Shown piece after piece: positions 4,011-64,000 of a stretch of DNA of 64,000 nucleotides. This stretch comes from Branchiostoma floridae (taxonomy: Eukaryota > Chordata > Leptocardii > Amphioxiformes > Branchiostomatidae). How positions within the stretch are numbered: position 1 is the stretch's first letter; every line of letters begins with the position of its first letter. The notes under the pieces were generated by a model. It was not told where the DNA came from. It saw nothing but the letters and a program-made list of their open reading frames with translations, and made no database searches. Location of the stretch: contig NC_049980.1 of the NCBI RefSeq assembly GCF_000003815.2, forward strand, positions 6,310,659-6,374,658. Direction: 5' to 3'. Made by a program: the position numbers and the translations under genes.

Positions 4011-4823
4011 GTAAGTTTTCATGATCTGGAATATTCACAGATGAGATTATAACACCTTATGACACGCCTATTTTAATATTATCGCCAATACAGATATCCA
4101 TTAGTGTCATTACTTCCATGAAGATGGAAGGTATTGTTGTCGGTTAAAATAATACACTGCAATACTGACTAGATATGATAGGAGTCGCTGTGAGACCGCC
4201 TGCAACCATGCCGATTTTTAGAACAACACTTTCTGCAATGAAGTACCTCGTCCCTCCTTTTAAAAGATGCAAACACAGTAAAACACCACACACTCTTGAT
4301 GGGGAGCCGTTTGTTTCAGGCACTGCGCGGAATTTATGCATAAACTCAATTCGAGAATTTCTTCTCTGGTTGACTCCGTTGTGCCTGGAAGAAAGGACTG
4401 GACTGAACGCCGAACGAGATATAAGCATGAAGAGCAGAAGCGTGGAGAAAAATACGAATTATTTACAAATTTTTATCCTCTTCGTGCTGTGTAAAGTTAT
4501 GTACTTGGAATTCCGTGATTATTTGCAAAAGAAACATATCTATGACGATATACAAAATGTAACTTTACCGCTATAACGTTCTACATCAGTGGCGTCAGCC
4601 AAGTTAAATTCACGATTTCGTTCCATTTCCTTTATGGGGTGTATTTTTACGATGTCTGGTTCCGAGAAGCTCAGACTAAGTCATATGTCTTCATAAATGT
4701 TTTCGGTCTGAAGTGTTGGCAACGTACCAAAATGGTTCACATCTTGTACTTTTTTTTTTTTTAGTTTCCTCAGTGCGAGGCCATATGGGCCACTTCTGGG
4801 CACTGAAGTTGCGCTCATTACAA
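4011..4823. other. No supported gene
   Basis: Contains open frames on both strands (the longest is 133 codons at 4175-4576) without recognisable domains, Kozak context or splice support. A T-homopolymer lies near 4749. Confidence 0.35.
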
Positions 4824-5034
4824 CACTACTTCACCTTTATTCGCAGGATAACCTATATCCGTTTGGGGGATTTAGGTATATCAAGTTTAAAACTACGGTA
4901 GTTTAAAACTACAATGTTTTGATAATACTGCAATTTGAAACTTCCGTCCGTCAACTTGATATCCCTACATGTACGTTGCCTGTTTAAAATACAACGGGTA
5001 TAGGTTACCTCGGATAAAGGTGAACTAGCGTTAA
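4824..5034. mobile_element. Fold-back MITE, family A, copy 2
   Basis: Left end TTCACCTTTATTCGCAGG, right end CGGATAAAGGTGAACTAGCG, with inner GATATC arms. Same structure as the copy at 448-667. The right flank CTAGCGTT matches the right flank of the copy at 6301, so the TIR probably extends to AACGCTAG. Confidence 0.8.
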
Positions 5035-8308: not shown

Positions 8309-9130
8309 TCCGCCGCGGGAAATCTTGTGCGACACCGGCTGCCCGGGTCAGGGCGCCCGGTACTTTATCACCGCCTTGCAGTCGTCCGCCCACGGGAAAT
8401 TGCGTAAAGTCACACTGACTTAATTCTATTGATGACATCCTGTGGAAGCCCAAAAAATAATGCGCGAGGGCGGAAAAAAGACAAATCCAGCAAACAAAAT
8501 GCTTCGATCTTTAGAGACGTATCACATAAGATTCGTACGAATCTCGTAAGGCTCGTGCAAATGCTTAGGCACCCCTTCATTGACCACAGAAACACGTAGA
8601 AGAGAAGCTGGGGCCATCTATGTGCTTGAATGTTTGCCTTCTTACAATGGTGGACTTTTGGTGTACATTGCTTGTATGTAGTAATAAATTTAGATTAGTC
8701 ACTTGTACCTAGCCCACATACGATCACTTCATGTTAGTACGTTAGTATTTGATTTTATTCATTTGCAATTAGCATGGGCATAAATTTGCAATAAAACATA
8801 TCATAACAAAGGCTTTTCCTTTAGACTCGTGTTTTTTATAAGCGGAGCCCTTTTTTGGAGAGCAGAAAGACGTTCAGATTCTATCGTGATCATCTGTCTA
8901 GATCTCTTTTCGCGGTGCCATTTTTATCAACGTCTTAGGTGTTAGGTCACTAAGTAGGTAAAGCTTCAAAGAGATGCCTTAAGTTATCGCTGCTGTACAT
9001 ATTATTGATAGACGGTCGATTAAGTGATGCCATCTCTGTCATTAGTCTTTGTCAGGTGTATCTTCTTACAGAGTCTTAAGTCGATGTGGTATCGATCAGC
9101 TTTAAGTTTCCACGTCTCTTTCCCTCTCTT

Positions 9131-28716: not shown

Positions 28717-29000
28717 GAGGTTACTGCCTGATAACCCATGGGAAATGGGGGCCTCTGATTGGCCAACTCCATCTGGCTATATGATAATATAGTAATAAAA
28801 AATAATAAAGTGGTTTATTGTCCATGTTTGGCTTTTGCAATATGTAAAATATCATTTGAAGATTCATGGTAGACGAATAAAAGGGGTTTCCACAAGTTCC
28901 AAAATAGCCGTAAAATTTGCCACCTCTAGAAATATTGAAATGATTATTTTGCTAACAATTAACGTTGTGTATATAAATGGCAATACGAGTGTGAATATTC

Positions 29001-29021
29001 TTCAGAACCAAGGACAGGGCA
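29001..29021 (+). promoter_or_regulatory. RE1/NRSE-like motif 1
   Basis: TTCAGAACCAAGGACAGGGC. It differs from the REST/NRSF core TTCAGCACCNNGGACAG by one base (C to A in GCACC). It is preceded by GAGTGTGAATATTC, which also precedes motif 2, so the two arose by duplication. Confidence 0.5.
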
Positions 29022-29306
29022 AAATGTATAAACGTGATATTTTTGTGATGTTCTCTTACTAATGATTGATATTATTCAAAATGCAAGAATAAGTGTCTCA
29101 GAGGGTCAAGATTTTCAAAGTAAGATTACATAAAGATGACAGTTTATTTTCACCGATTAACTCTTAGAATGTCTGAAAACATATAATTTGAAAATTTGTG
29201 GTCGTAGGGGTGCCCACAAACTATCTAAAAAAAGTAGCCCCTTTCTAGAAATGTCGAACTTATTATTTCAAGTACAAGTACTAGTATGTAATGAGTGTGA
29301 ATATTC

Positions 29307-29327
29307 TTCAGCACCAAGGACAGAGAA
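29307..29327 (+). promoter_or_regulatory. RE1/NRSE-like motif 2
   Basis: TTCAGCACCAAGGACAG followed by AGAA: a perfect match to the 17-bp vertebrate RE1 core. It lies in a segment related to that around motif 1, about 306 bp downstream. Confidence 0.6.
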
Positions 29328-30072
29328 AACAGTAAGAGCGTAAACCTTTGTTTCATAATTAGTTTTATGATATTCTCTGACTAATAATTAATTTTAAGAT
29401 CTTCTTTTATCTTTGTACCCACTCTATTATAAGGAAATAACGTGAACAAACAGTATAGTAATCAATAAAATATTCTTTATTTTAGTGGTAAAATGTTGAA
29501 ACATAGCGAGCGGAGCGGCCCCTTTCTTTGCCCAGCCAGTAGAATTATCGCCAGCCTCACATATTATATCGATATTTCGTATTTACCCGTAATACCACCA
29601 GCTTACTTCCACATCTGCTAGAGCGAATCTGCACATGATGAGGATTTAGAATCGTGTGCAGCCAAATAGATACAAAAGAATGGGAGATACGGCAGTCATA
29701 ACTCAAAACTATTGTGAGAACGTCTCGACTGTGCGTGCCATTGGCAACGTTCGCATCAATAACTGGACGTGAAGCCAATATTTCTGGAAGGAGAGAGCGC
29801 TGTTGGTCGGTTGAGTAGGTGATCTATGCTCTTCCTGCAGTCAGAACGACATACATTCAAAATTCAATCAACTGGACAACTCTATTTCAAAACACTGGTA
29901 TACAACAGAGGTCAACCGTCAACTTTATAAGGAAAATGACTTTGCTGTGCTTAAACTTAGTAGAGAGTAAAGCTTTTGAATTCAACCCACTTCATACATC
30001 AGTACTTTTTTCATGCGTTTTCTTTATAACATGCGGAGAAATGCATATTTTGAACGTAGTATAAATGATACT
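29328..30072. other. Intergenic, nothing recognised
   Basis: AT-rich. No feature is supported. Confidence 0.35.
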
Positions 30073-30255
30073 GGGATGTCCCTGTAGCTCATCTGGTAGC
30101 ATCCTCGCGGTTTAGCTCTTGGTTCCAATTAGTTAGCAACTGGAAGACCCCGGTTCATATCTTGGGAAGAGGTTGGGACCGCACATGTCTTTCGGAAGGG
30201 ACGTAAAAAGGGGGTCCCATGTTCGAAGAGTTATCTCGAGCACGTTGAAAAAGGA
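30073..30255 (+). mobile_element. tRNA-like SINE, copy 3
   Basis: GGGATGTCCCTGTAGCTCAT and CTGGTAGC form an A-box-like start. It is followed by CTCTTGGTTCCAATTAG, CCCCGGTTCATATCTTGG, GAGGTTGGGACCGCAC and TCTTTCGGAAGGGACGTAAA. The layout matches the copies at 17398 and 18405 (inverted). Confidence 0.7.
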
Positions 30256-30954
30256 AGTGCTAGCAAACTCTTTCCGAAAAAAAATGTACTCTGCCATACA
30301 AACAGCAAGGAAACTATATGCCACTAGTTATTATAAGGAGGACCCAAAAAACAAAAACAGTAAGAGATACTGCAGTACAGAATCGTCGTAACAAGTAAAC
30401 CTGAAACATCATGACACAAATCTACGAAAGAATATCAAGGTGGGCAATGTTGAAAATGTTTACAGGAATGCCGCGGTAGAAGTGTCACTATTTTCCTAAA
30501 AATGGATTGCAGTGTTATGTGAAAGACGTGAAATGAATTAATTGAAAAAATTATGCAGCACCAATGTATCTAGTGCCCATGCAAAATATATCCATGTAAA
30601 ATTGCTTTGAGACATGACGAATCTACTTTCAAAAGAAAACATTATGATCACTTTTATCACATATGTAGCTCACCGGCTTGTCCATGCCAATGTAGGCATA
30701 TGACTGAATTTTAGTACTGTGATAATGCCTTCAGTCGCCCGTAACCAAGCTTATGTCACAGTGAAGTATAAGTGGCCTACAGTGTTGTTCATGGTAAAAT
30801 TAGTTCATCTGCGGTCCATAACACGATAAGAAGGTGTAGGTGGTCTCGGTATGGGTCCATTGCTGATTACATTTGATGTCTACGGAAGAAAGAGGCATTT
30901 GGGCCTTAGTCCACATCTATGCAAAGCTATGATAGCTATTGACATAAAGTTGAA
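30256..30954. other. Intergenic, nothing recognised
   Basis: No feature is supported. Confidence 0.35.
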
Positions 30955-31050
30955 TGAAATAGAAAAGAGCAGAGTAGAATAAAAATAGAAAAGAATAGAA
31001 TAGAATGGCATAGAATAAAATAACATAGAATAGAATAGAATAGAAAATAG
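30955..31050. repeat. (GAATA)n pentanucleotide microsatellite
   Basis: Imperfect AGAATA/AGAAAA run. A second, cleaner run of the same unit lies at 31190-31246. Confidence 0.9.
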
Positions 31051-31189
31051 TCGAGCCAAGATGACCACTTAACATTTTGCAGTTCCTTAGATCGATGTCT
31101 CATTAATTACCTAAGTATGAAGAATCATGTATATTGTAGCTACCGTGACCATATCAATTAAATGGTCACTATCAACAGGATTGATACTA

Positions 31190-31246
31190 GAATGGAATAG
31201 AATAGAACAGAACAGAACAGAATAGAATAGAATAGAATAGAATAGA
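31190..31246. repeat. (GAATA)n pentanucleotide microsatellite, second run
   Basis: AATAGAATAGAACAGAACAG and further AATAG units. Same unit as 30955-31050. Confidence 0.9.
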
Positions 31247-31727
31247 AATCTGTGTTGGCAAGTGACGTGTAGGGAAGATACTAACTATTTAAAGTCGAGT
31301 TACATGGTCACTATGTTTTTGCCATCACTGGCTGTGTTGTATTCACTATCGTAATAGTTCACCTCGGTGAGGTTGATTAAATCGCATTTCTTCCTCCGTC
31401 TTTAATTGCATGATATGCCCGAGCTGAACTAGTGGGTCTTTGTATTTAATCGGAAGTTTGGTCATGTTCTCATGTGCCATATTTGCCAGATGATTGGACG
31501 TTCTTATCCTGAGCGGCGCAGGGATATACACGCATTACTTGAAGTGACCATTAGGCAAATGTTAGTGGAAATGTCAATCTGCGTTACACATAGTGTCAAC
31601 AATTTTAATGGCGACGTCAATCAGTAGTGGGCATGTACAGAACAACGTCTGTGCAACGTCAATTCTAATAAAACACAGGGACAACGATGCAATGGAAACT
31701 TTATTCAGTATTAGGAATGGCAGTATT
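31247..31727. other. Intergenic, nothing recognised
   Basis: No feature is supported. Confidence 0.35.
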
Positions 31728-31748
31728 TTCAGCACCAAGGACAAGGAA
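31728..31748 (+). promoter_or_regulatory. RE1/NRSE-like motif 3
   Basis: TTCAGCACCAAGGACAAGG, one change from the core (final G of GGACAG to A). The downstream AAAACAG...TTTCGCTTCATTA...GTGATATTAT is a diverged match to the sequence after motif 2 (AAAACAG...TTTGTTTCATAA...ATGATATTCT). Confidence 0.5.
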
Positions 31749-33229
31749 AACAGCAACAGCAGACGTTTTCGCTTCATTACCAGCTTGGTGATATTATCTT
31801 ATATTGTTAAGATAAGAATAGTCTTACCATAAACGGCAAAGAAGAACACAAACTAGAGGAGGACGTTTTGGTTAAGGTGATTATCACAAAATCAAGAAGT
31901 TATACGGAAGTTAGAAAAATCTGACAACTTTAGTCTTTTGACAATTAATGAAAATAACTTTTTTCAAGTTGCGGCTCTGTCAAAAGCAATATGACAAGAC
32001 TATATTCTTGTTGCTCACACTCAGCCAGCTGCGAGGTGTGTATTGTCAAATATGTATTGCAAGGAATGCTGGGATATTTGAATTTTCCTCTGAACACAGA
32101 TCTTGTGGGACTCACATATCGTTATATCACTTCTCGTAAGTAGCCACATCTAGATTGGTTGAACATGTTGCGTGATATATTATTCCATACGTGGCACTAT
32201 GCTAGGTTTCGGCATACGTTAGGTAAGTGATAAAACAATGGATTATCACTGTACCTTCTCACCATGGAATTCAAATCGGTGTTTGTAGCAATCCCAACTT
32301 GAGCCTTGCATGATAACGAATCGAGTTCATCAAAACCTCGGAAGTCATGGGTAACACTCTAATCAGCATAAATGTCTTCTACTAGCACATAATGTGCACA
32401 GGGAAGGCTCTAAAATAGCACTCAGTGACTGGAAAATGCCGTTGCTATTATCTAAAATGTTTCTCTGCACAAGAGACAGGAAGAGTCACATTAACGTTTC
32501 CCTGGATGGAACAGATAAGCACAGAGAAGCTATTTCTCACTACTCAAACAAAAAGGGCATCATTTTCATGAAGGTCCCCAATAGCTAAGAAATCTGTCAG
32601 CGGTTTCACCGGGGACTAGAGATATGTTTCGTTTATTTCTTGTTGGACAGGTCCGGAAAAATCGGATCTTAAAAATCAGTTGACCGGATGTTGGCCCGAT
32701 TAGAAAATGAACAGATTATACCGGAACTAGGGCGGCAGGAGTTCACGTGTTTGGGGGTTTATTGAAACCTGGTCTGACTGAACTGAGTTAGCGCTCGCCC
32801 AAACATATTCCTTTGTAGCGAAATGGACCATTGTTTTGAGTATGGCTCAATCACAGACAAATAATTAGGTCCGAGTTCAGGTCCGGACTTGGAGCCGATC
32901 CTCTGAACCTGGACCGTACTTGTACGTGAATTTTCTGTACCGGTACCCACTCTTACCGTGGACGGTATCCATTACCATAGCCAGAGACGTGTTTATGACC
33001 AACACCACCAGGCATAGGACAATTTAGGAGACTCCGAGCAAATGTCATCTGAGATAAAAGCAGGAAGATTAGAACGAAACGCGTTTAGAGTCAGGAACCG
33101 TGGCGACACTGTCAGTGTGGCTGCCAATACGTATTAAACACGGGGACCAGATATAAGCGTAAACTGTCAATCCGTATTTAGCCTGGTATTCCCTCTATTC
33201 TGCATGGAAGCAGAATCTGAGAAGCAAAC
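31749..33229. other. Intergenic, nothing recognised
   Basis: Short frames only. No splice-supported exon. Confidence 0.35.
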
Positions 33230-33925
33230 AGGAACGACATGTAGAGGCAGCTTTGTGTAAGTGTGAACGTCATTTCGTAGTCCACGTAGGAACAGCAATG
33301 TTTGTGTGCATGTTAATCTGCATTCTGGGGCAAGAATGGCGGTTTTGAACGCCAGTTTGCATTTCAGTAAGATACAAACAGCAATGTTTGTGTGAATGTT
33401 AATCCGCATTCTAGATATAGACAAGAAAGGCGATGTGAACGCCAATCCTCACATTCAAAGTAGAGACAGCAATGTCAGTGTGAAATTCAATCCACGTTCA
33501 ACGCAAGGTTAAGGTCAGTGTGAACGTCAGTCATCGGTTCACGTAGGGACATCAAAGCTAGTGTGAACGTCAATCCGCATTCCAGGACAGCAATTAAAAA
33601 ATAATGTCAGTGTGAACCCCAACCTGCATTCCAGGACAGCAATGTCAATGTGAACGCCAAACTGCATTCCAGGACAGCAATGTTAGTGTGAACACCAAGC
33701 TGCATTCCAGGACAGCAATGTCAATGTGAACGCCAAACTGCATTCCAGGACAGCAATGTCAATGTGAACGCCAACCTGCCTTCCAGGACAGCAATGTCAA
33801 TGTAAACGCCAACCTCCATTCCAGGACAGCAATGTCAATGTGAACGCCAAACTGCATTCCAGGACAGCAATGTCAATGTGAAGGCCAAGCTGCATTCCAG
33901 GACAGCAATGTCAATGTGAACTTCA
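33230..33925 (+). repeat. 38-bp minisatellite with decayed left flank
   Basis: Nine clean units from about 33575 to 33925. Each begins CATTCCAGGACAGCAATGTC and continues AATGTGAACGCCAAACTG. Diverged longer relatives run left to about 33230 (GGAACAGCAATGTTTGTGTG and similar). Each unit contains GGACAGC, the right half of the RE1 motif. The array lies between RE1-like motifs 3 and 4. Confidence 0.95.
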
Positions 33926-33962
33926 GTCAGTATCAGAGACAACAGTTTTGGTATGATTCTCC

Positions 33963-33983
33963 TTCAGCACCAAGGACAGAGAC
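33963..33983 (+). promoter_or_regulatory. RE1/NRSE-like motif 4
   Basis: TTCAGCACCAAGGACAG then AGAC: perfect 17-bp core, with the last C of the 21-bp vertebrate motif also matching. It sits 38 bp past the end of the minisatellite. Confidence 0.65.
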
Positions 33984-34200
33984 ATTCGCATACAATAAAG
34001 CTTCACTCACCAGTTAAGGGACCAGAGAACACAAATGAAGTAAGCTGCCATTTTATATCAAGGGCAAGGACAAATCATTGAATTATCATCAAGGACAACG
34101 AATAGAGTGGTAGACTGTTATTCAGCGAAAGAGACGAGACATCATTAACGTAAATTTCATTAGCCACTAGCAGGAGACAGATGTGTCATTGGGAATGTCG

Positions 34201-34221
34201 TTTAGCACCAAGGACAGGAAC
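34201..34221 (+). promoter_or_regulatory. RE1/NRSE-like motif 5
   Basis: TTTAGCACCAAGGACAG then GAAC. The T at position 3 is allowed by the TTYAGCACC form of the consensus. Confidence 0.6.
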
Positions 34222-34248
34222 AACATTCAACAACATTAGACATCTGTC

Positions 34249-34269
34249 GCCAAAACCAAGGACAGTAGA
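34249..34269 (+). promoter_or_regulatory. Degenerate RE1-like motif 6
   Basis: GCCAAAACCAAGGACAG. The right half is intact and the left half is lost. It follows motif 5 by 48 bp and looks like a decayed duplicate. Confidence 0.3.
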
Positions 34270-34329
34270 CGTCAAGAAGTAACTATCATTTAGCGACATG
34301 TATAGGCTGACTGTGACAGTGTGACCATT

Positions 34330-34350
34330 TTCAGTACCAAGGACAGGAAC
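34330..34350 (+). promoter_or_regulatory. RE1/NRSE-like motif 7
   Basis: TTCAGTACCAAGGACAG then GAAC, one change from the core (GCACC to GTACC). The downstream GAAC matches that of motif 5. Confidence 0.55.
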
Positions 34351-39569: not shown

Positions 39570-39726
39570 ATGGCTGACGCCGCCTTATCCCCATCTACCG
39601 CCGGTCCTCCACAGTCGGACTCCGACACCATGGCGGACAGCAACGCCAAGGGCTATCTCCTAGCCATCGTCGGCGAGGTCGACTCGCCTGAAGCGCTGAG
39701 AGCGGCGGCTGAAGCCGTCGGAAGAG
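39570..39726 (+). CDS. MAP1: MAP1-family microtubule-associated protein, coding exon 1
   Basis: The first 52 codons of the MAP1 gene. MAP1 proteins bind and stabilise microtubules, chiefly in neurites, and are cut into heavy and light chains. The exon begins MADAALSPSTAG at 39570 in good Kozak context (GCCATGG). A second in-frame ATG at 39630 (ACCATGG, then ADSNAKG) is just as good, so the protein may start at residue 21. The block YLLAIVGEVDSPEAL and then AAEAVGRG corresponds to the conserved start of MAP1A/MAP1B, where a similar 'VIGE...SPEQL...LERG' lies. The exon ends GGAAGAG|GTAAGC with one base of the next codon (phase 1), joining exon 2 in frame as G-IKAW, equivalent to GIRSW in MAP1B. 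The exon is CpG-rich. Upstream frames are not continuous with it. Confidence 0.88.
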
Positions 39727-41808: not shown

Positions 41809-42607
41809 TACACACACACACAAATACATCAAGAACCAAAACCTGTGTGGTGGCTTATATCATATAAATCCCTGTAGAAACATCCAAAATGCTGCAAGGC
41901 TGATTCCAGGGCCTACACATGCCAACTCCTTGGCTCTAGGGCTAGCAAGCCCCCTAGGAAATTCTGCACACAGTCCCCCAGGCATTGAGATCACAGGCTG
42001 GCATCCAGTCTAACGGTATTACAGACAAAATGGTGACTCATCTTTATTCTGCAAAATTTATAGCCACTGACAATTAGTCTACCTTTTAATGTAAGTAAGA
42101 TTTACCAGAGCCCCTCCTTTCTTCCAAAAGAGCAGCTGCCTGGAATATGTCATTGCTGTTCTTTTTAATGAAACCCCTTGGGGACTGTCATTTCTGTAAA
42201 ACAGATAAGAGGGATTCATCAAAATGCAGCCCCAGGATGAAGATGTCACATTGTATGACAGAAATTGTAGAACATGATCCTTTTTTGCGCTGTGGAATAT
42301 ATGTTATATAATAGGTATTGTCATCTTCTGCAATAACCTTTCATTTGCATCTCCCTGGAAAGACATTGTGATGAATTCAATACTGGATTTTATGAAATTG
42401 CTTAAGGATGGATTCTAAACTTAAGATGCAGCTGTCAGTACAAATTTCAGAAAAGTGTAAATTCAGTTGTTGTCTTTTTGGTTCAACTTCTTTTCAGTTT
42501 CATTCCATGCAACATAGCAGACTAATTAAGGTTCCAGAAATAGCTAAATATATATTTAGGGAGGGGCATGCACATTTCTTGTTGGGGGCCAAGAAAGCTA
42601 GCAAAAA
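39727..42607 (+). other. MAP1 intron 1, unique part
   Basis: The intron runs 39727-43363 (3,637 bp), GT...AG. It is AT-rich, with a (CT)n(CA)n compound microsatellite at 41766-41824. 40400-40620 and 40850-41130 hold short featureless frames. No additional MAP1-like exon was seen. Confidence 0.6.
41766..41824. repeat. (CT)n(CA)n compound microsatellite
   Basis: A long CT run passing into ACACAC. Lies in MAP1 intron 1. Confidence 0.95.
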
Positions 42608-43363
42608 TTAAGACATGTACATCTGGTCTTGATAGTTCATTAAGACATGATGTACATCTTGTCTTGACAGGTGTTTAAGACATGTACATCTGGTCTTGAC
42701 AGTTCATTAAGACACGAACATCTTGTCTTGACAGTTCATTAAGTCTTGACAGGTGTTTAAGACATGTACATCTGGTCTTGACTGGTGTTCAAGACATACA
42801 CATCTTGTCTTGACAGGTGTTTAAGACATGTACATCTTGACAGGTCATTAAGACATGTACATCTTGACAGGTCATTAAGACATGTACATCTTGACAGGTC
42901 ATTAAGACATGTACATCTTGACAGGTGTTTAAGACACATCTGGTCTTGACAGGTCATTAAGTCATCTTCATGTTGTCTTGACAGGCATTAAGACATGTAC
43001 ATCTTGTTTGACAGGTCGTTAAGTCATATACATCTGGGCGTGACAGGTATTAAGATGTGAATTAAGACAAGTCTTGACAGATTTAAATTGAGATGTGTGC
43101 ATCATACTGTAATGGGTAATAAGATGTTTATTTCTGGTCTTGACAGGCATTTAGACATGTAATTTTTGTCTTGACAGGCATTAAGACATATCATTTTTGT
43201 CTTGACAGGTATTAAGACATGTGATTTTTGTCTTGACAGGTATTAAGACATATCATTTTTGTCTTGACAGGTATCAAGACATGTATTTTTTGTCTTGACA
43301 GGCATTAAGACATGTAGTTTTTGTCTTGACAGGCACTAAGACATGTAATTTTTGCCCTGACAG
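42608..43363 (+). repeat. Minisatellite made of splice-acceptor-like units
   Basis: More than 20 units of about 31-40 bp fill the last ~750 bp of MAP1 intron 1. The right-hand units read TTTTTGTCTTGACAGGTATT then AAGACATG (about 31 bp). The left-hand units read CATCTGGTCTTGACAGGTGT and similar. The true exon 2 acceptor TTTTTGCCCTGACAG|GTATTAAGGCATGG is the last, slightly altered unit. The array therefore repeats a pyrimidine tract, the AG and the first bases of the exon. Confidence 0.9.
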
Positions 43364-43462
43364 GTATTAAGGCATGGCCCAACCCTGCCATGAAGGAAGA
43401 CGTCAGTACCGCCCTGAAGGACATGATGTCCCAGAAGCCTTCAGTCTCAGACGACATTCAAG
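43364..43462 (+). CDS. MAP1: MAP1-family protein, coding exon 2
   Basis: A 99-bp exon that completes residue 53 and encodes residues 54-85. It begins GIKAWPNPAMKEDVSTALKD and ends SVSDDIQ, with one base carried into exon 3 (phase 1 on both sides, so skipping it keeps the frame). It corresponds to the MAP1B segment between 'GIRSW' and 'GQKTLHH', which is conserved in position but less so in sequence. The acceptor is CCCTGACAG|GT and the donor is CAAG|GTGAGA. The GTGAGA donor is good. The acceptor is the final unit of the upstream splice-site minisatellite, so the first 14 exon bases (GTATTAAGGCATGG) also match the repeat at 12 of 14 positions. Use of the next acceptor upstream would add 31 bases and run into a TAA, so accurate choice of this acceptor is needed to make MAP1. 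Confidence 0.85.
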
Positions 43463-48918: not shown

Positions 48919-48939
48919 TTCAGCACCAAGGACAGGGAC
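48919..48939 (+). promoter_or_regulatory. RE1/NRSE-like motif 8 (MAP1 intron 2)
   Basis: TTCAGCACCAAGGACAG then GGAC: perfect 17-bp core, and G and C at the outer positions also agree with the 21-bp vertebrate motif. Among the best matches in the window. Confidence 0.65.
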
Positions 48940-49092: not shown

Positions 49093-49113
49093 TTCAGTAC
49101 CAAGGACAGGGAC
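49093..49113 (+). promoter_or_regulatory. RE1/NRSE-like motif 9 (MAP1 intron 2)
   Basis: TTCAGTACCAAGGACAG then GGAC, one change from motif 8 (C to T), 174 bp downstream. It is the matching site in the second duplication unit. Confidence 0.6.
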
Positions 49114-54535: not shown

Positions 54536-54960
54536 TATACAGTCAAACCAGCCCTATACTTTAGTCTATTGACCACATCTACAAAAAGAATTACCTGGCC
54601 AGTGATATACAGTCAACCTGTACAACATATATTATGTAAGGACCTGAAGGCAACGAGTCATTGATTTACTGAAAACCTATATAATTGACCCCTTCTAGAT
54701 AAGGACCACCTGGCCAGTGATATATAGTCAAACCTGTACAAGTGACAAGTGACCACCATTGATATACAGTCAAACCTGTACAAGTGACAAGTGACTACCA
54801 TTGATATACAGTCAAACCTGTACAAGTGACAAGTGACCACCATTGATATACAGTCAAACCTGTACAAGTGACAAGTGACTACCATTGATATACAGTCAAA
54901 CCTGTACAAGTGACAAGTGACCACCATTGATATACAGTCAAACCTGTACAAGTGACCACC
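54536..54960 (+). repeat. 42-bp minisatellite
   Basis: Units TGATATACAGTCAAACCTGT then ACAAGTGACAAGTGACCACC and AT. Five to six clean copies at about 54715-54955, with diverged copies to the left. The unit is a transposon end (see 53298) that has been amplified. Because 42 is a multiple of three, a repetitive false frame appears on the minus strand. Confidence 0.95.
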
Positions 54961-57970: not shown

Positions 57971-58293
57971 TTCCCACCTGATGCCATTTAGATAGCTGTT
58001 GCTGTATTACCGTGGAAACTACTTGCAAACTTTTCAGTATTTTTCATATCTACAAACCTCTAGTCTTAGCCCAGAAGACAAGTGGTTCAAATGCAGCTTC
58101 TCTTTATAGATTTGACCAAGATTTAAGTCTTTTTTAAGAATTAAAAATGCCCTTAGTTAATAAGTTGATTGATTTCAAAATTCAACAAATACAAATGTTG
58201 GATATTAAATGTCACATTGTTCTCATCTGTAACAGTTCAATAGTGAACCTGATGTGATCTATGCCTGACATCTTTTTTTTTTTCTTTCAACAG
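57971..58293 (+). other. MAP1 intron 2, 3' end and acceptor
   Basis: Ends with a strong pyrimidine tract and acceptor, TTTTTTTTTTCTTTCAACAG|GC, directly before exon 3. Confidence 0.85.
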
Positions 58294-60326
58294 GCCAGCA
58301 AACCTTACAACACAGCAGTGACAACATGGAGGCAGTGCTGCTGTTGAACCCCATCTTGGACACAGTCAAGTCCGAGGTGAAGAACATGCTGACGCACCAG
58401 GACAGGCACAAGCACCTCGTCTTTGGAGGCAAATCAGCGGAGAACAGTGGAGACTGGGTCCTGCAAGACGGAGCCTTCTCCTTCCTGGATCTGATTGACT
58501 CGTGCAAGGATCCTGATGTCTCCACTGCGCTCACGTCTATGGGTAGCCGACCGTGCTTAACCGTAAGCTGTGCACCAGAGGGAGATTTCAAAGGAACGTC
58601 GTGTGCTACAAAGTCGTTAGAGCAACAGATAGAGATTCAACTGAACCCCAAACAGGACGATTGTGACATTGAGAGCACCGAGGACTTTGGTTGTTACCTG
58701 ATTGACACGACCAATCTGGAAACACCTTTCAATCTGCTGGAGCCTGCAAAGGCGAGTGGATTCCTCAAGATCAGTAAGCCATCGCTGTATGTATTCCCTG
58801 CTGGGAAGGGAGATGCTGCTTTCTTTGCTGTAAATGGCTTCAACATCCTGGTGAACGGTGGCTCGTCCCGGAAGGCCTGCTTCTGGAAGCTTGTGCGGCA
58901 TTTGGACAGAATAGACGCTGTCATGATGACACATGCGGGGACTGACAGCCTGCCTGGCATGAACAGCTTCTTGCAGAGGAAAGTGGCTGAGAGAGACCTT
59001 GGGGAACCCAGCCCTGGCACAGACGAATACAATGACTGGCTCAGTAAAGTAAAGTCTCCCGAACTGGGAGTCTTTTATTTCAATGCCCCTGACAAGACAA
59101 AAGCTAACAACGTAGACTCCATGGTCCTAACTAGTAGGGACCTTGGATGTGACACCCTGGAGAATCTGAAACTACTGGATATAAAACCCCACCAATGCAT
59201 GAGAACGGACTCTAAATCAGAGCCACTGACACTCTTCAACAAAGTGGGTGTCGGCAAACTGGACATGTACATACTGAACCCATCAAAAGACAGTAAAGAG
59301 GTCAAAGAGATGCTACACCAGTGGAGCAACAATGCAAAGAAGTTTAGCTCTGCAAAGATTGGTGTGAAAGTTTCTGGTAAAGATGTTGACATTCCTATTC
59401 CTGACCTTACGTCTATAGCTGCTCTACTAGTGTGGCATCCTGCAAACCCTACAGAGAAGATTGTTAGGGTTCTTTTCCCTGGAAATGCCCCACAAAATAA
59501 AATCTTTGAAGGTCTCGATAGATTAAAACATTTAGAGTTCCTGAAACATCCACATGCCTCCCAGAAGATCCTTACAGATCAAACTAAGCCCAAGAAGAGG
59601 AAAGTATCAGAGAAAAAGATTCAAGAGAAAAAGGAAAAGGAAAAGACAGAAAAAAAGGCTGAGAAAAAAGTAACAGAGAAAGTTGAAGAAAAACCTAAGA
59701 CAAAGCCAAAGCCAAAGGCTGCTGCTCCTAAGAAGAAAGCAGCAAAACCCAAAGAGAAAAAGAAGGCTGCAAAGAAAGATGTTGGTGCTGCTATTGTAGC
59801 AACTGGTGCCATTGCAGCAGCCACTGGAGCTACGGTTATTGCAATGGCAGCGGATGAAGCTGCAGCTGCTCCTCCAGAGCAAGCACCACCCAAAGAAGAG
59901 CCAGCATTTACTCCCCCAGAGGACCTTACCGCTGAGTTTGAAAAACAACGAACGGAAGAGACAGCTGAGGTGGAAGTTGCAGAAGAGGCAATAGAAGAGA
60001 TGGAAGCTCAAATCCCTGCAGAGGAGGAGGAACCACCTACAACAGAAGAAGAAAAGGAAAAAGGTGCAGAGGAACTTGAAGGCAAGCCATCACCCGATGA
60101 AGAACCTGAAGAAAAAATCGAAAAAGAGGAGGATAACATTCCAGCTGAAATCATTGAAGAAACTATTGAGAAAGAGGAAGAAAAAACTGTCCAAGGTGAA
60201 GAGGAAGTACAAGAAAAAGAAGAGGAACAAGAAGATCATCGTGAAATCGAGGAAGCTGAAACTGCCACAACCACAACCACCACAGAAGGTCCTGATGAAC
60301 CTGATGAAGATGATGAGGAGGAGGTT

Positions 60327-60357
<31 letters not shown>

Positions 60358-63300
60358 GTATAACTCCAACTGCTCTTGTGCTTCCCTCCAGCATTGAAGC
60401 AAAGGCCAAGGATGAAGAGGAATCAGATCAAGAGATGGAAGAAGAGTCTTCTCCAGGAGATGAGAGAGAAGGGGAGGGACACGAGGCAGACATAGAGACC
60501 TCACCTGAAATCAGTGATGTGATGCAAAAGGGAGAGCCCGATGAAGAGAAGGGTACTCCTGAAGATTCAGGTCTGCCTGAGGAAGGACGTCGGCCAGAAT
60601 CAACAGAGCTGACATCAGGGGAAGAGGCTGAAGGAAAGGAAGTCTCTGAGGATGAAGCCCTTGGTGCTCCGGCAGAGGAGGAACAGAATGGAGAGGTAGG
60701 ATCTCCAGATGAAGAAGCAAACTATGAAATAGTGGACTCTGCAGAACCACAAGCCTCCTCACCAACAGAGGAAGAGGTCAAGTCACCAGAAGACAAGAAG
60801 TCCCTTTCTCCTCTTTCATCCCCTGAAATTATTACTATGGAGACAGCAGATGCTGCATTTGCACCAATTGGACTTGATGTTGGAGATGAATTGGAAGGAA
60901 TTCCCTTCAGCATCCCATCTAGAGATCAGCCAGAACAAGAACCTCAGAAAGAAAGCGAGGACAAAGAGGAGGAAGAAGAAGACGAGGATGAAGAGGATGA
61001 GACAACTCCAGTTTCTGAGGACAGAACTCCAGTAGCAGAGGACAGGACACCTGTAACAGAGGAGAAGACACCTGTTACAGAAGAGGCAGTTTCACCTGCA
61101 GCTGAAGAAGCTGGATCACCCGAAAAAGAACACAAGGAGGCAATTGAATCCCCCAAACCTAAGCCTGATGACATTGACATCTCCCCAATTGAACAGGTGC
61201 AGGAGTTTGAGCCAATCAAGTCAGCACCCCCTACAACAAAGACTTATGAAGCTGATACATCTGATGCTGATGCACAGTACCTTGCTAAATGGGAAACCCT
61301 GAATGATGTTAGCCCATCTGCTGCCCCAGAATATGCTGCCCCAGTTGCTATTGAAATTGAAGATGGAGAAGATAGTGATGGTGAGGAAAAGGAAACTCCA
61401 ACTACTGATAAAATGAAATTGCTGGAAGATCTTGAGGAAGAGGATGAAACAGAGCTTGCTGAAATAGCAAAGTCTCCAGAGACAGTGGACACCTCTGGTA
61501 AGGCTGCAATCCCAGTGACTACTGAGGATTCGGAAGAACCAACAAAGAAGGAAGACATCACTGAGGTGACTATGACAGTGGAGATTTCAGTACAGGAAAA
61601 ACATGAAACTGAAGAGGTTGTTGAGAAGGTGGACGAGGAAGAAGCAGCATCAGAAGATGATGAAGCAGAGGACAAGTTAAAAACAGCGGCAGAAGTAGTA
61701 ACAGCTCTGGTTGATACAGAAAAACAACTCGAACCTTCATCTGAAGAACCTGAACCTCAAACAGCAGCAGAAGTCACATTTGCTTTGGTTGATGCTGAGA
61801 AAGAACAGAGTCCTGTTGCAAACGTAGAATTTAAAACTGCAGCTGAAGTGTCGACTGCTCTGGTTGAATCGCAGAATGTACAAGAACAAGAGGCAGAGGT
61901 GGACCTCAAAACTGCTGGTGAAGTGGTTACATCCCTGGTTGCCTCTAAAATGGATGAGGAGGAGCCTGAGGTAGATGTCGAATTGAAGACAGCTGCTGAA
62001 GTAATGACAACTTTCACAGAAATGCAACAACAACAAGATGAGGAAAGGGCAGAAAAAGTAGATATCAAACCTGTTGCTGAGGTTGCTACAGCCCTTATAG
62101 AGGTAGAAAAACAACAAGAGGCATCCCTAGTACCTTCTGAAATGGCATTAGATGACAAGCCTGAAGCTGAGGAGGCAGGAAAACAGGAAGAGCCAGAGGT
62201 CGATTTGAAAGCTGATGCTGAGGTTGTGACAGCTGTGATAGACACACAGAAGGCTGTTGAGTCAGACACAAAAGTGGAAATGCCAACTGCTGCTGAAAGC
62301 CAACCAACAGAAGAGGAGGCTGAGGAAGCGCCTTCAGAGGACGAGCAAGAGGCAGGTGATCATGTAGAACTTGAGACAGCTGCCAATGTTATAACTGCCC
62401 TGGAAGACATCAAGAGGGAGCATCCTGAAGAAGTTGATGTAGACTTTAAGACTGCTGCTGAAGTTGTCACAGCCCTTGAAGACGCACAAAAGGAACACCC
62501 AGTAGCTGAAGCCGAGGTGGAACTGAAAACGGCTGTGGAAGTTGTTACCGCTCTTGAAAGTGTAAAAACTGAGGAGACAACAGAACCTGAAGCAGAACAG
62601 CAAGCAGAAACTGAGGTGGAATTCAAGACAGCTGCAGAGGTTGTAACTGCCTTTGAAAGTTCAAAAACAGAAGAGCCAACAGAAACTGAGGTAGATCTGA
62701 AGACTGCCGCAGAGGTTGTTACCGCACTTGAAGGTGTAAAAACAGAGGAACCAACAGAACCCGAAGCTGAGGAACCTGAAGAAACTGAGGTAGATCTCAA
62801 GACTGCCGCAGAGGTGGTTACAGCTCTTGAAGTTGCAAAAACTGAAGAACCAACAGAAACTGAGGTAGATCTGAAGACTGCAGCTGAGGTGGTTACAGCA
62901 CTTGAAGGTGTAAAATCGGAGGAACCAACAGAACCCGAAGCTGAGGAACCTGAAGAAACTGAGGTAGATCTGAAGACTGCTGCTGAAGTGGTTACAGCAC
63001 TTGAAGGTGTAAAAACCGAAGAATCAGAAGAAACTGAGGTAGACCTCAAGACTGCCGCAGAGGTGGTTACAGCACTTGAAGGTGTAAAAACAGAGGAACC
63101 AACAGAACCTGAAGCTGAGGAATCAGAAGAAACTGAGGTAGACCTCAAGACTGCGGCAGAAGTAGTCACAGCTCTTGAAGTTTCAAAAACTGAGGAACCA
63201 ACAGAAACTGAGGTAGACCTCAAGACTGCCGCTGAAGTGGTTACAGCACTTGAAAGTGTAAAACCTGAGGAATCAGAAGAAACTGAGATAGACCTCAAGA

Positions 63301-64000
63301 CTGCTGCAGAGGTGGTAACAGCACTTGAAGGTGTAAAAATAGAGGAACCAACAGAATCTGAAGCTGAGGAATCAGAAGAAACTGAGGTAGACCTCAAGAC
63401 TGCCGCAGAAGTGGTTACAGCTCTTGAAGGTGTAAAACCTGAGGAGCCAACAGAAATTGAGGTAGATCTGAAAACTGCTGCTGAAGTTGTTACAGCACTT
63501 GAAGATGTTAAACCTGAGGAACCAGAAGAACCGGAAGCAGAACAGCTGACAGAAACTGAAGTGGAACTCAAAACTGCTGCAGAGGTTGTCACTGCTCTTG
63601 AAGATGTAAAAACTGAGGAAACAGAAGAAACTGAGGTATACCTAAAGACTGCTGCTGAAGTTGTTACAGCACTTGAAGGTGTAAAACCTGAGGAACCAGA
63701 AGATGAAGTGGAACTTAAGACTGCTGCTGAGGTAGTCACAGCCCTTGAAAGTGTAAAAACGGAAGAGGTAACAGAAACTGAGGTAGAATTCAAAACAGCT
63801 GCAGAGGTTGTAACTGCCTTTGAAAGTTCAAAAACAGAAGAGCCAACAGAAACTGAGGTAGATCTGAAGACTGCCGCTGAAGTGGTTACAGCACTTGAAG
63901 GTGTAAAAACCGAGGAATCAGAAGAAACTGAGGTAGATCTCAAGACTGCTGCAGAGGTTGTTACAGCACTTGAAGGTGTAAAACCTGAGGAACCAGACGA
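58294..64000 (+). CDS. MAP1: MAP1-family protein, giant coding exon 3 (partial)
   Basis: Open from the acceptor to the window end (about 1,901 codons from residue 87, 3' end not reached), as in vertebrate MAP1A/B where one giant exon codes for most of the protein. Residues 87-515 are the conserved MAP1 N-terminal domain. It includes QQTLQHSSDNMEAVLLLNP, FLKISKPSLYVFPAGKGDAA, AVNGFNILVNGGSSRK, CFWKLVRHLDRIDAVMMTH, VGVGKLDMYILNPSK and LLVWHPANPTEKIVRVLFPG, all close to MAP1B. Residues 517-583 are Lys-rich with a PKKRKV motif, the likely microtubule-binding part. Residues ~584-640 carry an Ala-rich stretch and PPEDLTAEFE, also found in MAP1B. Acidic Glu-rich sequence follows (about 59940-61000), then four RTPV[A/T]E[D/E]-type heptads (61002-61085), then the KTAAEVV repeat array from 61677. 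The heavy/light chain cut site and light chain must lie beyond the window. Confidence 0.96.
61677..64000 (+). repeat. Coding tandem repeat, KTAAEVVTALE units (at least 27)
   Basis: Lies inside MAP1 exon 3 and keeps its frame. The core is VDLKTAAEVVTALE followed by a variable acidic linker such as GVKTEEPTETE. Units 1-10 (to about 62610) are diverged and of mixed length. From there units are nearly identical and come in two lengths, 25 codons (75 bp) and 33 codons (99 bp, with an added TEPEAEE-like insert), often alternating. The array is still running at the window end. The unit is predicted to be helical and highly acidic. It is unlike the repeats of vertebrate MAP1B or fly futsch. Confidence 0.95.

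Follow-up and report, generated by a model that had tools for sequence, protein, structure and literature searches.

RE1-like motifs near a MAP1 gene, their genome-wide repertoire and a REST-like zinc-finger gene in the lancelet Branchiostoma floridae

A stretch of 64,000 bp of the Branchiostoma floridae genome (C2:6310659-6374658, the window in what follows) carries, close to a gene of the neuronal MAP1 family, a series of 17-bp motifs that resemble RE1/NRSE, the site of the silencer protein REST. This locus raises the question of whether the motifs are RE1 elements read by a lancelet REST, and whether MAP1 is their target. We judge it somewhat probable that the motifs, which number in the thousands across the genome, are lancelet RE1 elements and sites of a REST orthologue encoded in the same genome, that they have grown by tandem duplication and with a minisatellite, and that through them REST would silence MAP1. 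REST itself is described as conserved in vertebrates in PMC5573535.

RE1-like motifs in the window

The window was scanned with the 17-letter pattern TTCAGCACCNNGGACAG, in which 15 bases are fixed, with up to 3 mismatches allowed and 100 shuffles as the null. Twelve matches were obtained, against a shuffle mean of 1.31 and a maximum of 4, in agreement with the proposal of an initial annotation of this DNA that the motif recurs beyond chance; a chance origin was rejected on these shuffles and on the genome-wide reversed-pattern control given below. All seven places named in that annotation were confirmed on the + strand; six have AA at the two free (NN) positions, and the one at 34249 is degenerate, as it had been described. 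The motifs considered here, with the tandem array that adjoins them, are the following:

29001-29017, + strand: RE1-like 17-mer TTCAGAACCAAGGACAG, 1 mismatch; fits the degenerate RE1 consensus
29307-29323, + strand: exact RE1 core TTCAGCACCAAGGACAG, 0 mismatches; duplicate partner of 29001
31728-31744, + strand: RE1-like core with last base A, 1 mismatch
33603-33921, + strand: 38-bp minisatellite with CCAGGACAGC, 8.4 copies; GGACAGC units with the right half-site and no intact left half
33963-33979, + strand: exact RE1 core, 0 mismatches
34201-34217, + strand: RE1-like core TTTAGCACCAAGGACAG, 1 mismatch; fits the degenerate consensus
34249-34265, + strand: degenerate motif GCCAAAACCAAGGACAG, here ACCAAGGACAG, right half or part only; outside the set with up to 3 mismatches
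34330-34346, + strand: RE1-like core TTCAGTACCAAGGACAG, 1 mismatch
48919-48935, + strand: exact RE1 core, probably within a MAP1 intron; absent from the initial annotation
49093-49109, + strand: RE1-like core, 1 mismatch; 174-bp local duplicate of 48919; absent from the initial annotation
6734, - strand: RE1-like match, 1 mismatch; absent from the initial annotation

The degenerate RE1 consensus NTYAGMRCCNNRGMSAG was fitted by five of these sites (29001, 29307, 33963, 34201 and 48919), and CAAGGACAG was found 8 times on the + strand of the window and 0 times on the - strand. Eight window cores were identical at 13-15 of the 15 fixed positions in all 28 pairs, with most flank pairs near the shuffled level, a comparison that is biased because the sites were found through their cores. 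Clear exceptions were the pair 29001/29307, whose left flanks share 79% identity (null 61%), and the pair 48919/49093, alike on both sides (80%; null 60%), so that local duplication with intact cores, which had been proposed for the series, is right for these two pairs. In addition, 31728 and 29307 share a 72-nt stretch at 74% identity. Of eight RE1-bearing array units set against the unit of the 38-bp minisatellite, 4 resembled it (uncorrected p 0.002-0.05), and 2 did so when GGACAG was masked, which at most suggests a relative with a broken left half.

Genome-wide repertoire, flanks and arrays

The genome searched comprises 513,431,437 bases in 431 contigs, and the reversed pattern served as control. 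Exact TTCAGCACCNNGGACAG was present 7,427 times (3,462 + 3,965; control 1), and 16,728 places matched with no more than one mismatch (control 22); the idea that such a cluster is special to MAP1 is not supported by these counts. Half-site pairs 0-20 bp apart numbered 7,622 (control 4), and 7,427 of them (97.4%) had the 2-bp spacing given as canonical for RE1 in PMC9903721. With its first base set to T, the degenerate consensus was found at 8,818 places (control 25). Among the first 100 listed exact matches the NN dinucleotide took the forms AA, AG, AT, AC, CA, TT, TG, GC, GT and GA. These 100 matches span 8.73 Mb of contig C1 and form 42 loci when merged at 5 kb, 31 of them single, from which one stretch the whole genome is extrapolated to hold about 2,500 loci.

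That the motif behaves like an RE1 across the genome is supported by the 2-bp half-site spacing, the variable NN and, as described below, many unrelated flanks. The RE1/NRSE of vertebrates likewise has a 17-bp core with half-sites 2 bp apart, a variable spacer dinucleotide and thousands of copies. In its 21-bp form the vertebrate element ends in 3' CGCC, an end that was found in 0 of 22 visible non-array lancelet sites (7 array rows dropped), and for this reason we file the lancelet motif as an RE1 variant and not as the vertebrate 21-mer. For comparison, PMC9903721 gives a total of 8,436 canonical sites lying beneath the REST peaks of four human cell types, and PMC4499139 describes RE1 expansion as partly due to transposons or repeats. 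No report of lancelet RE1 sites was found in the accessible text of PMC3902484, PMC3145563, PMC9400249 or PMC3485006, and the open-access literature yielded no paper on lancelet RE1 sites or REST, most subscription papers lying outside that search.

Flanks were compared over 60 bp a side, with the core masked, for 101 sites with no more than one mismatch, taken from 20 C1 stretches around listed sites and from the window. They fell into 37 groups, of which 33 were single sites and one, with 62 sites, brought L011 and L025 together with the arrays L009 and L015. When 45 non-array sites were set against the spacer of a 43-bp minisatellite, 30 showed no resemblance to it on either side, 11 resembled it on a single side and 4 on both (threshold p ≤ 0.05 a side, uncorrected); one single dispersed repeat family was rejected, as the flanks are not common to all copies. 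When the commonest array junction was barred from the pattern, 1,443 sites were still obtained (control 1), other arrays among them; of its 100 listed matches, 80 lay on C1 and formed 52 loci, of which 44 held a single site. The main argument for selection, or for independent origin as binding sites, is drawn from these sequences: thousands of 15-base cores could not stay intact under a neutral decay strong enough to efface their flanks.

The motif does occur within a dispersed minisatellite. Exact pairs on the same strand, 8-38 bp apart, were counted 2,064 times genome-wide (control 0). With periods searched between 25 and 55 bp, 100 listed array rows, all on C1, represented 26 loci whose periods ranged from 31 to 52 bp; 43 was the most frequent (44 of the 100 rows), followed by 37 (15) and 41 (12). 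Many of the listed arrays share, by eye, a spacer of about 26 bp like GTATGTTTACCTGTGTGTGGATGGTG; among eight chosen array spacers 2 of 28 pairs were alike at p ≤ 0.02 by shuffling, so that relatedness is clear for some arrays and not for all. In array L009 exact cores were found in 9 of 17 units, and two cores had four or more changes; in array L015, where 44 units were located by the spacer alone, 23 cores were exact. The minisatellites and "mirage" duplications of PMC3902484 are similar in being short local tandem duplications within lancelet genes, and differ in that a transcription-factor site in arrays is not described in the accessible text of that paper.

Three further observations concern single loci. 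On the - strand of C1:1537035-1537102, four TTYAGMRCCNNRGMSAG fits stand exactly 17 bp apart and form an array without spacer. The stretch L023:3189-5461 holds ten sites at distances of about 150-410 bp and with diverged flanks; one is exact, and the rest are variants such as TTCAGCACCAAGGAAAG. In the stretch L019:4999-5577, about 150 bp separate the exact site TTCAGCACCCAGGACAG from a following open reading frame (ORF) that had no Pfam or PDB match and that looks like the start of PDCD2, which is not a neuronal gene. Altogether, ten ORFs at eight sampled site loci gave no Pfam family match.

A REST-like zinc-finger gene

The initial annotation had proposed to look for a REST orthologue, and a REST-like zinc-finger gene is indeed present. 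A hand-typed human REST sequence served as query; two PDB sequence searches with pieces of it returned no entry named REST. The human REST finger query matched 538 places, with generic finger genes on top, scoring being confined to 150 of the 4,113 first-look candidates. The degenerate finger-6 helix pattern NQHE[VIL]xRH had one match in the genome, at C4:20317613; since the control also gave 1, this match by itself proves little, and the case would be carried by the surrounding context.

The candidate locus, L048, encodes a finger with TNRKDH, where human finger 2 has TNRYDH, and its fingers 3-6 are 58% identical to those of human REST, with 142 bits against 118 for the best other finger ORF compared. 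The recognition residues (-1, 2, 3, 6) of fingers 5 and 6 are QTHR and NHER, 8 of 8 as in human, with finger 6 completed by one histidine. On the same completion, a hand count over fingers 3-6 gave 11 of 16 recognition residues, and the script scored 7 for the truncated ORF of the candidate. Furthermore, a separate candidate exon starts finger 7 with ADRS before the assembly turns to N, and the stop is preceded by a lone C-terminal finger, GHSCDFCGRFFTDRDIWEQHVQRHLQAS; the finger 5 and 6 residues, the ADRS start, the TNRxDH of finger 2 and the lone C-terminal finger are all shared with human REST. The lancelet protein is unlike it in three further fingers upstream. The putative REST-like identity rests on the recognition residues.

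Other sources of evidence and other genes were set aside. Pfam zf-C2H2_REST is not diagnostic, as the candidate passed it with 30.9 bits but two generic lancelet finger proteins scored higher, with 73.3 and 99.9. The poly-finger genes topping the human REST query were rejected on their recognition residues, and the first REST candidate, at C4:20253 kb, was rejected as a reader of RE1 because its recognition helices differ by eye. A second multi-finger gene (L041 and L047, C4 about 20250.8-20253.7 kb) lies some 64 kb from the REST-like gene; it has a similar lone C-terminal finger, GDYVCIYCDRSFTDKNMWTQHISRHK, with other recognition helices, and is perhaps a tandem paralogue.

The MAP1 gene and the rival explanations

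The setting of the motifs relative to MAP1 was derived from two exons:

39588-39707, + strand: likely first coding exon of MAP1 (MADSNAKGYLLAIVGEVDSPEALRAA); tblastn, E 0.01, with a hand-typed human MAP1B query
about 58293-63998, + strand: large MAP1 exon, open to the end of the window; Pfam MBL_MAP1B E 1e-117 and MAPB1_N E 5e-33

Given this first exon, the motif cluster would lie about 5-10.5 kb upstream of it, and the 48919 and 49093 sites are probably intronic. Between the exons there are minisatellites at 42607-43376 (units of about 31 bp) and 54714-54956 (about 42 bp), in which the window motif scan found no RE1 core match, and in the coding region, at 62427-63998, nested 75/99/174/249-bp repeats encode units of the type ELKTAAEVVTALE.

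The sequence shows the sites with their number, half-site spacing and varied flanks, and the REST-like gene; we infer binding, silencing and MAP1 as a target. In non-neuronal cells the predicted lancelet REST would most likely bind both the cluster upstream and the two intronic sites, recruiting silencing by CoREST and histone deacetylase, as is known for vertebrate REST, and the outcome would be a MAP1 gene silenced outside neurons.

Several results weigh against this interpretation, the first group of them on the side of site recognition. In fingers 3 and 4 the candidate has KFLK and RVNA where human REST has SYHK and RNNQ, which is 3 of 8 recognition residues alike. The N-terminal fingers of REST read the 3' half of the site, and the divergence would fit the loss of the CGCC end. 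With human REST as query, generic finger ORFs reached up to 189 bits over 200 residues against about 150 over 125 for the candidate, a lower score that we attribute to its being split by introns and to the likeness of finger domains among themselves. Six substitutions that the vertebrate consensus permits brought in 1,391 places (8,818 - 7,427), and six matched ones that it does not permit 433 (7,860 - 7,427), but all 45 single substitutions together added 9,301; for the remaining 33 this means an average of at least about 226, level with the permitted six, so that RE1 tolerance is not separable from general decay by this test. Atypical RE1 sites have an 8-9-bp spacer, with the sixth finger stretching between the half-sites, according to PMC9903721. 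In the lancelet, unlike in vertebrates, such sites are rare and this spacing is weakly present: after 23 of 62 rows had been dropped as degenerate canonical or second sites, the listed rows with non-G after the dinucleotide numbered 4 at 8 bp, 0 at 9 bp and 5 at 7 bp (three of these five from one array), with 0-4 at other spacings.

The second group of results concerns the arrays, and it speaks for the idea that a dispersed minisatellite or transposon, whose unit happens to include an RE1-like string, produced the copies in passing, REST being irrelevant to them. The initial annotation had warned of a dispersed repeat and had asked whether thousands of copies belong to one repeat family. There are thousands, but not one family; 55 of the first 100 listed exact sites, a difference from vertebrate RE1, lie in tandem arrays (loci of four or more sites), many of them with the related spacer, and to this extent the warning was justified, whereas it does not hold for the 30 of 45 non-array sites that are unlike the spacer. 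The by-product idea also draws on the 2,064 same-strand pairs, on the predominance of period 43 and on the spacer that several listed arrays share by eye. In addition, the core is under no clear extra constraint in young arrays: in L015, the core had changed at 29 of 660 positions (4.4%) and the spacer at 19 of 440 (4.3%), and without the four of ten spacer positions that the unit-finding rule had fixed, the spacer figure became 19 of 264 (7.2%; against the core, Fisher p 0.10). In L023, a copy recognized by its flanks, near 4808-4896, has lost its core. We nevertheless consider this idea improbable. Exact cores with unrecognizable flanks at most non-array sites are incompatible with neutral decay, as at 60% flank identity 0.6^15 of the cores (about 0.05%) would be intact and millions of ancestral copies would be needed; the array spacers are alike in few pairs; and it would take coincidence to explain the half-site spacing and the presence of a REST-like gene. 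A reading of the sites by another lancelet zinc-finger protein is very improbable in our judgement: the many places matched by the human REST query, the small part of the first-look candidates that was scored and the differing fingers 3-4 speak for it, but finger ORFs from 16 other loci had no more than 9 of 28 recognition residues in order with human REST, against the 11 of 16 of the candidate. It is rather unlikely that RE1 is real and bound by REST genome-wide while the MAP1 cluster is a bystander, made of decayed or duplicated copies with weak binding or no effect. The MAP1 locus is not exceptional in the genome, as its 3 exact copies in 64 kb are only mildly above the genome mean, which is 0.93 (Poisson P 0.07); clustering of sites is common; and the adjoining 38-bp array is without an intact left half-site. 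Against the bystander reading, copies with no more than one mismatch number nine against 2.09 expected (Poisson P 0.0003, a value that ignores the strong genome-wide clustering), the sites flank the likely first exon on both sides, and the MAP1 family is neuronal.

With these alternatives weighed, the reading of the motifs as RE1 elements of a lancelet REST leads to a view of how the system arose. The REST/RE1 silencing code probably predates vertebrates. Somewhat short of an even chance, in our estimation, is the fuller proposal in which a pre-vertebrate code was enlarged in the lancelet, largely by way of minisatellites, to some 2,500 loci by extrapolation and more than 7,000 exact sites, while fingers 3-4 and the 3' end of the site diverged in concert between lancelets and vertebrates. 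RE1 tandem arrays, with up to dozens of predicted REST sites, could nucleate silent chromatin or titrate REST. If the proposal is true, an invertebrate chordate possesses both a matching protein and a matching, very large repertoire of sites, which would place the origin of the neuronal-silencing code before vertebrates, and the lancelet would offer a direct test of how silencer networks grow, through tandem minisatellites in this animal and through transposons in mammals. The co-evolution of protein and site, that is of fingers 3-4 and the 3' extension, would also become testable.

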